IMG/VR virus record: IMGVR_UViG_3300029309_000231 | Span: 1 to 22,526 of that record | DNA length: 22,526 nucleotides | Direction: 5' to 3' (one strand) | From: a virus | Shown: one piece after another, positions 14,931 to 19,248 of the stretch | Layout of the letters: each line of letters opens with the position of its first letter | Numbering within the stretch: position 1 is the first letter of the stretch | Translations under genes and position numbers: made by a program | Notes under the pieces: generated by a model | Told to the model about the DNA's origin: nothing | The model's database searches: none | What the model saw: the letters and a program-made list of their open reading frames with translations, nothing else

Positions 14931-16571
14931 ATGGCTAATGTCATCAAAAATAAAAGAGGTACAACAAAACCTAGTGCATCTGATTTAGTTGTTGGAGAAA
15001 TAGCAGTTAAAACAGATGACGCAAAATTATATATTGAAAATGATTCTGGATATGTTTTTGAAGTAGGTGAAACACTTGGTACTTATAGTAGTACAACGAT
15101 TACATATACAGTTACAGTCGCAACAAAAACAGCAGCTCATAGATATTACGGAACTGGATCTACACAAGGATATTTAATAAATGGTATTTTTTCTCCATTT
15201 TTATCTTTAGTGCCAGGTAATACCTATAAATTTGATCAGTCAGATAGTAGTAATAGTGGACATCCTTTTCGTTTTTATCTTGAAGCTGATAAAACTACAG
15301 CTTATACAACAAATGTAACTACTAACGGAACAGCAGGTTCTAGTGGTGCTTATACGCAAATTGTCGTAACAGATTCAACACCAATTATCTTGCATTACCA
15401 ATGCTCTGCTCATGGTTATATGGGAAATAGTGTCGCATCTAATAGTAATGCAATATTAACAGCAACAACTCAATCTACAAGTGATAATTCTACAAAAATT
15501 GCTACAACAGCTTTTACTCAGTCCGCAATAGGTAACGCAACCATATCAGGTTCACAAATTTCAACAAATGCTATAACCACAGCCAAAATAGCTGACTCAA
15601 CTGGATCATCTGATGGGATAACAACAGCCAAAATAGCCGATGATGCAGTCACTTATGCCAAAATCCAGAATGTATCCGCTACTGACAGATTATTAGGTAG
15701 AGATTCATCTGGTGCAGGTGTTGTAGAAGAGATAGCTCCAAGTGCAGTAAGAACAATGCTTGGACTTGCTGCTTCTGCAACCACAGATACAACTAATGCA
15801 GCTAATATTTCATCTGGAACTATACCTACAGCTAGGTTAGGATCAGGAACAGCTAGTTCGTCTACATTTTTAAGAGGAGATTCAACATTTCAGACAATAA
15901 ATACTGACTTAGTAAATGACACATCGCCACAGCTAGGCGGTCTTTTAGACACAAATGGTTCAAATATTAAATTTGCTGATAGTTCTGGTGCAACAGTTAA
16001 TAGAGCAGTATTCGGAACTGGTGATGATTTACAAATTTATCATTCTGGGAATAATAATGTTATAGATTCAAACAATAGTTGGTTAAATATAACCTCAGAT
16101 GGAGGTGTAGCGATAAGGCATGAAGTTCAAGCTGATGGATCAGATGGCGAAAATATGGCGATGTTCCACCCTGATGGAGCAGTAGAGCTATATTACGACA
16201 ATTCTAAAAAGCTGGAAACAGTAACAGGGGGCGTTAATATTACAGGTGCTTTAGTAGCATCAGGTGATGTAACTGCATTTTCTGATTTAAGATTAAAAAC
16301 TGATATTCATACAATTAAAGATGCTTTAGATATTGTTAGCAATTTAAGAGGTGTTGCTTATAAATGGCTTAATAATGGCAAAAGTAGTATTGGTGTTATT
16401 GCACAAGAAGTTGAACAAGTTATACCTGAGATAGTAACAACTAATAAAGACTTGATATTTGATGGAGCTAAAGACGTTAAATCAATTGATTATGGAAAAA
16501 TTGTAAGTGTTCTTATAAATGCAGTAAATGAATTGAAAGCAGAATTAGATGAAATGAAAGGAGTTTTATAA
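14931..16571 (+). CDS. Tail fibre with cupredoxin-like domain and C-terminal S74 autochaperone
   Basis: A 546-residue fibre behind an AGGAG site. Residues 1-48 repeat the anchor type of the fibre before it (VIKNKRGTTKPSASDLVVGEIAVKTDDAKLYI). Residues about 58-170 resemble a cupredoxin: His111 in SGHPFRF, then Cys158, His161 and Met164 in CSAHGYMG. Residues 175-440 are typical shaft sequence (ITTAKIADDAVTYAKI; DDLQIYHSGNNNVI; GAVELYYDNSKKLET). From about 450 (FSDLRLKTDI...GVIAQEVEQVIPEI) it carries a peptidase_S74 intramolecular chaperone, which helps the trimer fold and then usually cuts itself off at the Ser-Asp step (S451-D452). The last residues are a coiled coil. The stop shares a base with the next ATG. 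Confidence 0.88.
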   Translation: MANVIKNKRGTTKPSASDLVVGEIAVKTDDAKLYIENDSGYVFEVGETLGTYSSTTITYTVTVATKTAAHRYYGTGSTQGYLINGIFSPFLSLVPGNTYKFDQSDSSNSGHPFRFYLEADKTTAYTTNVTTNGTAGSSGAYTQIVVTDSTPIILHYQCSAHGYMGNSVASNSNAILTATTQSTSDNSTKIATTAFTQSAIGNATISGSQISTNAITTAKIADSTGSSDGITTAKIADDAVTYAKIQNVSATDRLLGRDSSGAGVVEEIAPSAVRTMLGLAASATTDTTNAANISSGTIPTARLGSGTASSSTFLRGDSTFQTINTDLVNDTSPQLGGLLDTNGSNIKFADSSGATVNRAVFGTGDDLQIYHSGNNNVIDSNNSWLNITSDGGVAIRHEVQADGSDGENMAMFHPDGAVELYYDNSKKLETVTGGVNITGALVASGDVTAFSDLRLKTDIHTIKDALDIVSNLRGVAYKWLNNGKSSIGVIAQEVEQVIPEIVTTNKDLIFDGAKDVKSIDYGKIVSVLINAVNELKAELDEMKGVL

Positions 16572-17821
16572 TGCCTTGCCCTGCTAGTGGAACTATTAAG
16601 ATACAAGACATAGTAGATGAGTTTGGAGGTTCAGCACCACATTCATTATCAGAATATTATAGAAACGGTGGTGAAATACCAGGAAATAATACAAATGTTC
16701 CTGAGTCTGGACAAATATCATTAACTGATTTTTATAGTGCAGTTAATGAAATACAGCATACTCATAGTGATGGAGATACTCATGCTAATTATTCGACAAT
16801 TTTTGGCAGCAATTATGCTTCAGCAGTTCCGAAAAGAGTTATTGTCCCTAGTGGAGTAACAGTTGGAGGCACAACAACACACGCTATGCTTTTACCTTCT
16901 GGTATGGGCGGCACAATAGTTTTTGATATTACTGGAAATGTACATGGATATGCAGGTTCAGCTAATGGAGGTAATGGTGGAAATGCTATTCATTGTGTAC
17001 AAACAAGTAATGTAACGATAAATATAAATTCTGGAGGGGCTGTAAAAGCTGGAGGTGGAGGTGGTGGACAAGGTGGATCGGGAGGAACAGGAGGAGCTGG
17101 AGGAACAGGAGGAGCTGGAGGTAACAGTAGAAGTGCTTATAATTCTGCTATCGCAGGTTTAGGTAGATACAATAATTATTATGGTGTGCCTGGTACAGGA
17201 TGTTGTGAGTATGCAGACCTAAGTTATTTTCCTACAATTCCAGCTAGTTGTTGTACTTGTAGTAACTCGCCTGCTGCTTCTAATTTTGGATATATTGGTA
17301 ATACTTTTTGTGCGTTTCAAGGTAATAATACTTGCACTTATTTCGCACGTTGTTATTCTTACAACTATACAAATGGTGGAGCTGGAGGTTCAGGAGGTTC
17401 AGGAGGTTCAGGGGGTTCGGGTGGTTCGGGTGGAATAGGTCAAGGTTACAATCAATCTGCGGCTTCTGGGTCGGCAGGTTCTAGTGGATCGGCAGGTTCT
17501 TCTGGATCTTCTGGATCAAGTTCTTCAGCAGGTAATGGTGGTACAGGCGGTAGCGGAGGTCAAGGAGGGACTGGTGGAACTGGTGGAACTGGAGGGTCGT
17601 TTGGCTCATCAGGAAATCAAGGGGCTACAGGTAATCAGGGAGCTACAGGTAATACAGGGAGTAGTGGTAGTAATGGTAACTACCAAAATGGAGCAAGCGG
17701 TAACGCAGGGTCTTCTGGATCAGCAGGTTCATCTGGTGCAGCAGGTGGACAAGCAGGCTATTATATATTTAACAGATCATCAATCACTTTAAACAATTCA
17801 GGCACCGTAGCAGGTCAGTAA
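16571..17821 (+). CDS. Glycine-rich adhesin-like tail protein with an eight-cysteine insertion
   Basis: A 416-residue protein behind a strong AAAGGAG site. Residues 8-58 (IKIQDIVDEFGGSAPHSLSEYYRNGG...GQISLTDFY) form an N-terminal module common in marine phage tail proteins. A beta region follows, ending SNVTININSGGAVKAG. Residues 161-184 and 269-395 are almost pure Gly/Ser/Thr/Ala with GGT, GGS and GAT triplets, as in polyglycine-helix adhesins such as gp38 of T-even-like phages. Between them (185-268) is a loop with Cys211, 212, 227, 228, 230, 247, 255 and 261 plus many Tyr and Asn. It closes with AGYYIFNRSSITLNNSGTV. It is likely the tip that touches the receptor. The +1 frame is also open over 17484-17792, but only because of the repeats. 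Confidence 0.72.
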   Translation: MPCPASGTIKIQDIVDEFGGSAPHSLSEYYRNGGEIPGNNTNVPESGQISLTDFYSAVNEIQHTHSDGDTHANYSTIFGSNYASAVPKRVIVPSGVTVGGTTTHAMLLPSGMGGTIVFDITGNVHGYAGSANGGNGGNAIHCVQTSNVTININSGGAVKAGGGGGGQGGSGGTGGAGGTGGAGGNSRSAYNSAIAGLGRYNNYYGVPGTGCCEYADLSYFPTIPASCCTCSNSPAASNFGYIGNTFCAFQGNNTCTYFARCYSYNYTNGGAGGSGGSGGSGGSGGSGGIGQGYNQSAASGSAGSSGSAGSSGSSGSSSSAGNGGTGGSGGQGGTGGTGGTGGSFGSSGNQGATGNQGATGNTGSSGSNGNYQNGASGNAGSSGSAGSSGAAGGQAGYYIFNRSSITLNNSGTVAGQ

Positions 17822-17824
17822 TTT

Positions 17825-18250
17825 ATGGCAGAACCAAAAGCAACAATAAAAGAAATTACAGCAAATTCAATAGCAGTTGAATTTGAAGATGGGTCAGTAG
17901 CTTTAGTTCCTACTAATAAAAATCAAACAAAAGAAGATTTGATAGCTACAATTTTTCAATTTTATAATCCTATAAAAGCGTGGGATAAAGTTGAAGATAT
18001 ACCTCTTAGTGAGGGAGAGGAAATTCAACGAGCTGTTACAGAAACAGATAATACAGAGCTTGACTATAGGGCAGCAAGAAGAGCCTTATATCCTAGTTTT
18101 GGAGATCAATTTGATGCACAGTATTGGGCAGATCTTGGTGATGATACAGAGTTAAAAAATATTCGTGCAAAAATAAAATTAGTTAAAGATACAGTTACAA
18201 AAGATAAAACTTATAAACAAAGTGAAATAAATGAGCTTTTGAAACAATAA
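17825..18250 (+). CDS. XkdW-like or tail-fibre-assembly-like small protein
   Basis: A 141-residue protein beginning three bases after the adhesin stop. The first 70 residues (ATIKEITANSIAVEFEDGSVALVP, then a helical DLIATIFQFY) look like a small beta domain. The C-terminal half has YRAARRALYPSFGDQFDAQYWADLGD, a version of the 'YPsigDQLDalyh...gd' motif found in XkdW-type and other proteins encoded at the end of fibre operons, then a helix ending KLVKDTVTKDK. Such proteins may help fibre assembly or attach to the baseplate; no enzyme motif is visible. It is separated by only three bases from the ParB-like gene that follows. Confidence 0.6.
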   Translation: MAEPKATIKEITANSIAVEFEDGSVALVPTNKNQTKEDLIATIFQFYNPIKAWDKVEDIPLSEGEEIQRAVTETDNTELDYRAARRALYPSFGDQFDAQYWADLGDDTELKNIRAKIKLVKDTVTKDKTYKQSEINELLKQ

Positions 18251-18253
18251 TAA

Positions 18254-18655
18254 ATGGGTTTACCTCAATTTTTGTACAATCCATTTACTGATGAATCTCC
18301 TTTATATAGAACTTCAGAAGTATTTGAAAAAGTATCAGCAAATACTTTGCAATTAGTAATGTTCAAAGATATTCATTTTGGTACACAATATAAACAAGAA
18401 GAATTTGCACCTATTTCTAAAAATAGAATTTTAGGAGCAGATATTAGATACCCTCCTATAATTTATAAAGCAACAAAAGAAAAATATAAACCAAAATATT
18501 GTGTTTATGATGGAAGACATAGATTACATAGACTGCAACAAGAGGGTAAAACTTCAACTGTTTGTTTTATCTTAAAACCTACTATTTTTGAGAAAATAAG
18601 ATCAATTCCTAACCCTTATTATCAAGGTAATTTATGTATTGGTTGTGGTGAATGA
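18254..18655 (+). CDS. ParB/sulfiredoxin-fold protein
   Basis: A 133-residue protein. Residues 63-107 carry the ParB/Srx signature: DIRYPPIIYK strand, a lysine-rich turn, then CVYDGRHRLHRLQQEGKT (DGRHR at 86-90) and strand VCFIL. The fold serves as a DNA-binding CTPase, nuclease, phosphotransferase or sulfiredoxin-type enzyme. This copy has no helix-turn-helix DNA-binding domain and lacks the ParB-CTPase length, so partition is unlikely. It ends with CIGCGE, a CxxC that could bind a metal. Its stop overlaps the oxygenase start (ATGA at 18652-18655), so the two are probably made together. The substrate is unknown. Confidence 0.7.
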   Translation: MGLPQFLYNPFTDESPLYRTSEVFEKVSANTLQLVMFKDIHFGTQYKQEEFAPISKNRILGADIRYPPIIYKATKEKYKPKYCVYDGRHRLHRLQQEGKTSTVCFILKPTIFEKIRSIPNPYYQGNLCIGCGE

Positions 18656-19248
18656 AAAGTGTAAAAGTAATTGATGAATTTTTGCCAAGAGAAATTTTTA
18701 TACCTCATGCAAATGGTTTGATGCAACAATCTATTTATGCACCTATTAATTTTACTATTGATACAGAAAAAGAAAGAGATGGGTCAATAGTTAATTTTGG
18801 CGAATTATTATATCCAGAAGCTCCAAAATTTAATTTTCAATTCCAAGCTGTTTTATATAGGCATAGAAATGATAAAGCAGTAATATCTGATGTTTGGTTT
18901 GATTTAAAACTTTTTTTTGATGAATTAAAAAAGAAATTACAGATTAATCAACTTAAAGTTGCAAGAATAAATTGTAATACTGTTGCTGATAAACAATATG
19001 AGGGAGAATATCATACAGATTACGACATATCAATACAACAAGATATGCCATTTTTCTTTACTGCAATTTTATATTTTAACTCTAACAATGGTGGTACACG
19101 TTTTGAAAATGGTCAATTTGTACAAAGTAAAGCCAATAGATGTGTTATTTTTCCTACTGAAATGAAACATTGCACAGTATGGCAGACAGATGCCAAAATG
19201 AGATTTGTATTAAATCTAAATTATTTTGTTGATAATTTTGATGATTAA
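18652..19248 (+). CDS. 2-oxoglutarate/Fe(II)-dependent oxygenase
   Basis: A 198-residue protein of the prolyl-4-hydroxylase-like dioxygenase superfamily. Iron ligands are visible as His121-x-Asp123 in YHTDYD and His173 in MKHCTV; Arg184 in AKMRFVLNLNYF is placed to hold the 2-oxoglutarate tail carboxylate. The strand FTAILYFNSNNGGTRFENG and the FPTEMKHCTVWQTD turn are typical of the double-stranded beta-helix. The enzyme would hydroxylate an unknown substrate (protein side chain, DNA base, or metabolite) using iron, O2 and 2-oxoglutarate. Enzymes of this type are common in cyanophage genomes, though mostly unassigned. It overlaps the ParB-fold gene by four bases. Confidence 0.82.
   Translation: MKSVKVIDEFLPREIFIPHANGLMQQSIYAPINFTIDTEKERDGSIVNFGELLYPEAPKFNFQFQAVLYRHRNDKAVISDVWFDLKLFFDELKKKLQINQLKVARINCNTVADKQYEGEYHTDYDISIQQDMPFFFTAILYFNSNNGGTRFENGQFVQSKANRCVIFPTEMKHCTVWQTDAKMRFVLNLNYFVDNFDD

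Follow-up and report, generated by a model that had tools for sequence, protein, structure and literature searches.

An exchangeable, often cysteine-rich insert in a family of predicted gp38-like phage adhesins

The window analyzed in this study (the whole stretch of 22,526 nucleotides, which is part of a 29,948-base virus record) encodes a protein that is probably a gp38-type adhesin, in which loop B would have grown into a hypervariable and likely disulfide-bonded receptor-binding knob. Among the relatives of this protein the frame is conserved, the insert between two polyglycine blocks is exchanged as a whole, the predicted fold resembles that of gp38, and the cysteine counts of cysteine-bearing inserts are even in nearly all cases.

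Results

Layout of the adhesin and its genomic setting

The first-pass annotation, made from the sequence alone, had pointed to an eight-cysteine segment at 17123-17374, which could be confirmed: it comprises exactly residues 185-268 and lies between two polyglycine blocks (Table 1). The cysteines of this insert are located at positions 211, 212, 227, 228, 230, 247, 255, and 261 (a CC, a CCTC, and three singles), and its 84 residues also include 11 tyrosines and 11 asparagines. Eight of the ten cysteines of the 416-residue protein are thus found in the insert, with the 332 residues outside of it containing 99 glycines and only two cysteines (positions 3 and 142). At the background of 0.57% cysteine exhibited by other ORFs on related contigs, the binomial probability of at least eight cysteines in 84 residues is ~4e-8. 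Regular GGx runs of 24 residues each are present on either side of the insert (residues 160-183 and 267-290). The description of the flanks as nearly pure Gly/Ser/Thr/Ala applies to the C-terminal half and to the residues directly next to the insert, but not to residues 1-155, which make up an ordinary, well-conserved domain (in the model a three-helix-like N-terminus and a beta-helix).

Table 1. Positions of the adhesin, its parts and its two neighboring genes in the window.
Feature	Position	Strand	Evidence
Tail fibre with C-terminal peptidase-S74 (intramolecular chaperone) domain	14931..16571	+	PF13884, 59.4 bits, cut-off 22
gp38-like polyglycine adhesin, 416 aa (predicted fold)	16571..17821	+	AlphaFold model compared with gp38 structures; phrog_10745, E 1.1e-12
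Presumed N-terminal attachment domain, residues 1-60, three short segments	16571..16750	+	One conserved aromatic residue each: F18, Y30, F54
Beta-helix, residues 61-160	16751..17050	+	Block pLDDT 86-96; aligned with gp38
Glycine block 1 (GGGGGGQGGSGGTGGAGGTGGAGG), presumed polyglycine-II helix	17048..17122	+	Pattern match; six-Gly stretch invariant (alignments A1, A3)
Hypervariable cysteine-rich insert, residues 185-268, 8 Cys	17123..17374	+	Composition; alignments; slot corresponding to loop B of S16/PP01 gp38
Glycine block 2 (GGAGGSGGSGGSGGSGGSGGIG)	17375..17440	+	Pattern match; kept in relatives
Further Gly/Ser/Ala xxG runs, rest of the presumed polyglycine lattice	17441..17746	+	Pattern match
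Closing strands and C-terminus (AGYYIFNRSSITLNNSGTVAGQ)	17747..17821	+	pLDDT 86-93; conserved
Conserved 141-aa ORF behind the adhesin, no assigned role in the adhesin	17825..18250	+	phrog_9114

Genes of a lambda-like tail are present in the window, namely those for the tape measure, tail L, an NlpC/JAB protein, and gpJ. Among named phages the nearest gpJ proteins are those of the Prochlorococcus phages MED4-117 and P-HS2 (38%), and the seawater single-cell virus AG-345-A17 matches with 54% over 47% of the gpJ length. The S74 fibre gene and the adhesin gene overlap by one base of stop and start codon, the last base of the former being the first base of the latter, and this fibre is presumed to be the structure that the adhesin caps. 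An S74-like ORF was found upstream of the adhesin in 16 of the 55 relatives whose contigs extend 450 nt or more in that direction, namely in the 15 most window-like ones (the window included) and in L058 (relatives are given by locus number). According to the phage V22 paper (PMC7289586), the fibres of S16 employ a C-terminal intramolecular chaperone. An ORF similar to the one directly behind the adhesin was present in 22 of the 57 relatives for which 450 nt or more of downstream sequence were available; it could be a fibre chaperone like gp27 of V22, and the DUF4376 match that was sought in the ORF of the window was not seen.

Near the tail genes, 2OG-Fe(II) oxygenase-like ORFs were observed in the window (18652-19248) and in L016 (positions 319-900), with PF13640 scores of 22.9 bits, which is below the cut-off of 27, and 44.3 bits, respectively. 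Furthermore, a 133-aa ORF of the window (18254-18655) contains a DGRHRLHRL stretch with some likeness to ParB-like nuclease domains, which was not confirmed by Pfam.

Predicted fold and position of the insert

For the window protein, an alignment of 39 sequences gave an AlphaFold model with a mean pLDDT of 63. This model is confident in the beta-helix and the C-terminal strands, of low confidence in residues 1-60 and in the insert, and disordered at residues 196-243 with a pLDDT below 50. In the glycine part the pLDDT is mostly 32-59, compared with mostly >90 in the model of L033, a relative with a cysteine-free insert and a mean pLDDT of 82.7. The resemblance to gp38, which had been guessed from the sequence alone, was upheld by the comparison of these models with known structures (Z ~16 for the window protein and ~20 for L033). 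Using VIA-align, the window model matched gp38 of S16 (6f45_D; Z 16.4, rmsd 4.2, 194 residues aligned) and gp38 of PP01 (9v85_A; Z 16.2, rmsd 2.7, 178 aligned), after which the match dropped to Z 6.2. The best PDB matches in Foldseek were again gp38 of PP01 (E 5e-3, probability 1.00) and S16 (E 6e-3, probability 0.99). The L033 model aligned to 6f45_D with a Z of 19.8 (rmsd 2.3, 178 aligned, 28% identity), and seven strands are modeled in its insert (181-268), forming a beta-rich domain with glycine stretches at both ends. Structure prediction thereby recovered the gp38-like frame, but yielded no confident model for the insert of the window protein.

At the level of families, phrog_10745, the function of which is unannotated, matches the window protein (1.1e-12), gp135 of Sinorhizobium phage phiM9 (2e-118), and gp38 of S16 (8.8e-5). 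No Pfam family was found for the adhesin at E-values up to 10, and neither PF05268 (GP38) nor PF21721 (Gp38_N) matched the window protein, L033, L021, or L012. For PF05268, phiM9 gp135 fell short of the cut-off of 25 with 22.9 bits, and S16 gp38 reached 246 bits. As there was no PF05268 match above the cut-off, the protein is filed as gp38-like, outside of PF05268. Characteristic features of gp38 were found: a glycine-rich polyglycine-II lattice behind a beta-helix in the predicted fold, conserved glycine motifs with hypervariable segments between them, and an adhesin gene directly behind the distal fibre gene. By its predicted fold, the window protein is a gp38-like tail-fibre-tip adhesin. 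A sequence search of the PDB with the profiles A3 and A4 gave only matches to glycine linkers and other low-complexity sequence (a BamA-BamD fusion, SNF7, a parvovirus capsid, and others), all of which were rejected as due to composition.

According to PMC6851490, gp38 docks to its fibre via three tryptophans. The N-terminus of the window protein, which PF21721 does not match, has F18, Y30, and F54 in place of tryptophan; position 18 is aromatic in 59 of 59 sequences, Y30 is kept in 59 of 59, and F54 in 51 of 59. The likeness of these residues to the docking tryptophans is suggestive only.

The order of motifs in S16 gp38 is GGDCIH...RINNQGWICGGGGGGGG, FRVGHTEA, and GGGGG, and that in the window protein is GGNAIH...ININSGGAVKAGGGGGG, an extended glycine block, and then the insert. 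Reading of the sequences along with hhalign puts the insert slot behind GGGGGGGG of S16 gp38, with the hhalign score to S16 gp38 alone being weak (E 0.016-0.025, probability 2-3%). The slot comes after the longest glycine motif, which is the site of loop B in PP01 gp38. In PP01, as stated in PMC12892980, this loop comprises residues 161-170, with residues 158-170 being essential for adsorption to OmpC. The equation of the insert slot with loop B rests on the fold match and on this reading, the alignment score being weak. If it is correct, a loop of ~10 residues became a domain of ~80 residues.

Relatives and replacement of the insert

Relatives were collected by IMG/VR scans and a profile of the N-terminal domain, which gave 96 matches, 94 of them with a start codon and 77 of them unique proteins; together with the truncated relative L030 the set comprised 78. 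From these, 13 proteins (12 loci) sharing only the N-terminal domain, without a second glycine block, were removed by means of a hand-made list, and five others (L084, L018, and L070, at contig ends, as well as L091 and L096) on account of missing blocks. Both glycine blocks are kept in the remaining 60 relatives (window included), and 58 inserts were clustered after leaving out L005 and L045 with inserts of <15 aa. The collagen-like repeat proteins L034-L038 and L040 matched by their glycine repeats and were excluded. Two scans covering 84,980 genomes of bacteria and archaea yielded no relative. A tblastn search against named phages gave N-terminal matches only, in Xanthomonas phage X1 and in two records that both represent phiM9. 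The only relative with the whole architecture that was seen in a cultured phage is the hypothetical protein gp135 of phiM9. It belongs to the same family, has the same frame, and is encoded directly after the S74 fibre gp134; unlike that of the window, its insert contains no cysteine.

Among the relatives the N-terminal domain and the glycine frame are kept and the insert is exchanged whole, so that the comparison came out as the first-pass annotation had foreseen, with a conserved glycine frame and a highly variable loop. The median identity of the inserts was 0.23 in the 123 pairs with an identity of 0.8-0.9 in the N-terminal part and 0.29 in the 36 pairs with at least 90%, at a background of 0.19 (95th percentile 0.26) for shuffled inserts. 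In pairs with 85-96% N-terminal identity, insert identity was mostly at the background level. Cysteine-rich presumed knobs and cysteine-free predicted beta-domains swap in one slot between close relatives. At the DNA level, for which eight pairs were compared, the identity between L057 and L054 amounts to 96% in the upstream 400 nt, 88% in the N-terminal frame, and 83% in the C-terminal frame, but 53% in the insert, which in the same slot has 58 residues with six cysteines in L057 and 78 residues without any in L054. Such high identity of the frame alongside unlike inserts indicates replacement and not drift. The segment had also been called a variable loop. Variable it is, but with 50-100 residues it is a domain-sized insert and not an ordinary gp38 loop of 5-10 residues.

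Several peculiarities were observed among the inserts. In clade A (window, L004, L007, and L002) the last strand, beside the glycine block, reads Y-x-Y/F-x-Y. The cysteine-free inserts of clade C (alignment A4) have a W-G...V / Y-R-G pattern in common and are modeled as a beta-domain, and the inserts of L058, L071, and L083 look like this domain with cysteines added. One contig, L032, encodes two glycine-rich proteins sharing the N-terminal domain (L032:492-1445 and L032:6001-7182) with eight and ten cysteines, respectively, the glycine architecture of both being unlike that of the window adhesin.

Cysteine counts of the inserts

Grouping of the 58 inserts at 50% identity resulted in 45 clusters, of which 18 contain no cysteine, two contain one, five contain two, six contain four, ten contain six, and four contain eight. 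Among the 27 cysteine-bearing clusters, 25 are thus even and two odd (coin-toss p 2.8e-6). The two odd ones, L080 and L095, have a single cysteine each, so that every one of the 25 clusters with at least two cysteines is even, as are all 20 clusters with at least three. The 274 mechanically listed ORFs of at least 150 residues from the same contigs served as a control: with two to eight cysteines, 64 were even and 57 odd. In 80-residue windows of these ORFs the ratio was 84 even to 20 odd for at least two cysteines and 10 to 20 for at least three; as two cysteines are far commoner there than three, this control discriminates only from three cysteines upward. The frame N-terminal to the insert has mostly a single, often unpaired cysteine, hence the preference for even counts is not a general trait of the protein. 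With 18 of 45 clusters being cysteine-free, cysteines are also not necessary for the design of the adhesin.

The prediction of even counts was fixed before three further scans, which provided nine follow-up loci (L111 was counted as the same as L110). Both new cysteine-bearing inserts were even, that of L121 with six cysteines in the main slot and that of L109 with two in a later slot. L133 has the frame cysteine only. L113 has one cysteine in a glycine-rich stretch lacking a second block and an insert, and would be odd if counted as an insert.

The segment had been proposed to be either disulfide-stabilized or metal-binding, and of these two options the even counts favor the former. It appears rather improbable that the cysteines bind a metal in a zinc- or iron-type site which holds the knob or touches the receptor. 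Eight cysteines could form two sites of four, 11 out of 27 listed inserts having at least two cysteines contain CxxC pairs, and His-rich inserts do exist (five His each in L003, L008, L012, and L083). However, five clusters have just two cysteines, some of them without any His (L060 and L030), the insert of the window contains no His and a single CxxC, and clusters with two or six cysteines outnumber those with four or eight (15 versus 10), which is explained by disulfides but not by four-ligand sites. The arrangement of a zinc site, i.e., CxxC-like pairs supplying four or more Cys/His ligands, was not found, whereas the mark of a disulfide-bonded domain, even cysteine counts across unrelated insert versions, was. 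Since the counts are two, four, six, and eight, in some cases without His, disulfides within the insert fit better than four-ligand metal sites, and the sequences thereby point to such disulfides rather than to a metal.

Similarly improbable is the idea that variation of the insert stems from an escape from selection, i.e., that the insert is a tolerated, perhaps disordered decoration and that other tip loops or another fibre bind the receptor. The short main-slot loops of L005, L045, L109, and L116 show the insert to be dispensable in some phages, and the window model is disordered at the insert. Yet, selection for folded domains is evident from the even cysteine counts, from the W-G and Y-R-G pattern that recurs, and from the modeled beta-domain of cysteine-free inserts, and the slot corresponds to the loop that is essential in PP01 gp38. 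Relatives poor in the main insert also have a two-cysteine insert in a later slot (L005 and L109) or variable later loops (L116). In L005, L045, and L109 the two cysteines are located in the C-terminal half, as if another tip loop had been co-opted; the variable later loops of L116 contain no cysteine.

That the number of cysteines is incidental, with even counts merely reflecting common ancestry of a few inserts, seems very unlikely. Part of the cysteine pattern (CTG...CTNC-like) is indeed common to clades B and C, and the clusters are for this reason not all independent. Nevertheless, grouping at 30% identity still gave 18 even and two odd clusters (p ~2e-4), all four even counts from two to eight occur, the control ORFs were divided almost equally, and the two inserts found later were even as well. 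Least of all is a retroelement (DGR) expected to diversify the insert as in other phage receptor-binding proteins: a Tyr- and Asn-rich variable segment at the presumed receptor-binding tip would suit it, but a reverse transcriptase (PF00078) was found in none of the records (0/1 for the window, 0/50 for the relatives; records possibly being fragments), no repeat of the insert that could serve as a template was found in the 29,948-base record, where exact matches reached 14 nt at most, and the inserts are of unequal length and cannot be aligned.

Discussion

Taken as a gp38-type adhesin with a domain-sized loop B, the window protein would cap the tail fibre, onto which its N-terminal domain would dock, and its beta-helix would lead to a lattice of polyglycine-II helices. 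Behind the longest glycine block, the former loop would form a domain of ~80 residues carried on glycine stalks of ~24 residues per side. This insert, being the varying part, is most likely the receptor-binding surface, and exchange of the whole insert in an unchanged frame may direct the phage to a new target. In cysteine-bearing versions the fold would be held by one to four disulfides, which probably form only after the virion has left the reducing cytoplasm and reached an oxidizing medium.

The arrangement agrees in several points with characterized adhesins. Gp38 of S16 (PDB 6F45) and PP01 (PDB 9V85) likewise combine a beta-helix with a glycine lattice and hypervariable segments between glycine motifs, and in S16 gp38 is encoded directly behind gp37, as the adhesin is behind the S74 fibre. 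Differences concern the neighborhood, which in the window is lambda-like (gpJ, tail L) and not T-even as for gp38, and the loop itself, the short loop B described for PP01 being replaced by an 84-residue cysteine-rich domain on glycine stalks. What sets these adhesins apart from gp38 is an insert that has the size of a domain, can be swapped, is carried on long glycine stalks, and is often rich in cysteine; no printed account of a cysteine-rich or domain-sized insert in a gp38-like adhesin was found in the open-licence literature. Gp24 of cyanophage Pam3 also has a stem of glycine motifs and a hypervariable distal tip, but is trimeric and contains a TNF-like domain instead of the beta-helix (PMC9608196). 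The main text of that paper describes no cysteine-rich insert and does not use the words "cysteine" or "disulfide".

A further parallel can be drawn to the ultralong CDR H3 of bovine antibodies, for which a long stalk and a hypervariable cysteine-rich knob with cysteines varying in number and position are described, along with a preference of bovine heavy-chain V regions for even cysteine totals (PMC5994613, PMC7366855). The bovine loop has a beta-ribbon stalk, comprises 40-70 residues, and is diversified somatically, whereas the phage insert has glycine stalks, mostly comprises 50-100 residues, and was diversified over phage evolution. The last strand of clade A inserts resembles the YxYxY of the bovine stalks. 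This likeness is an analogy and not kinship. Whether the tip slot functions as a counterpart of the cow loop, accepting interchangeable domains that include knobs whose disulfide number and pattern provide binding diversity, is in our estimate an even call.

With loop B as the exchangeable receptor-binding domain, the segment in which a large group of uncultured phages probably encodes its host specificity is readable from metagenomes, and exchange of this segment may explain host switching of such phages. A change of receptor becomes testable in pairs of relatives with a constant frame and a different insert. The cysteine-bearing versions suggest that virion proteins assembled in the reducing cytoplasm can use disulfides outside of the cell, and they provide a family of naturally occurring binding domains that are mounted on stalks and probably disulfide-bonded.
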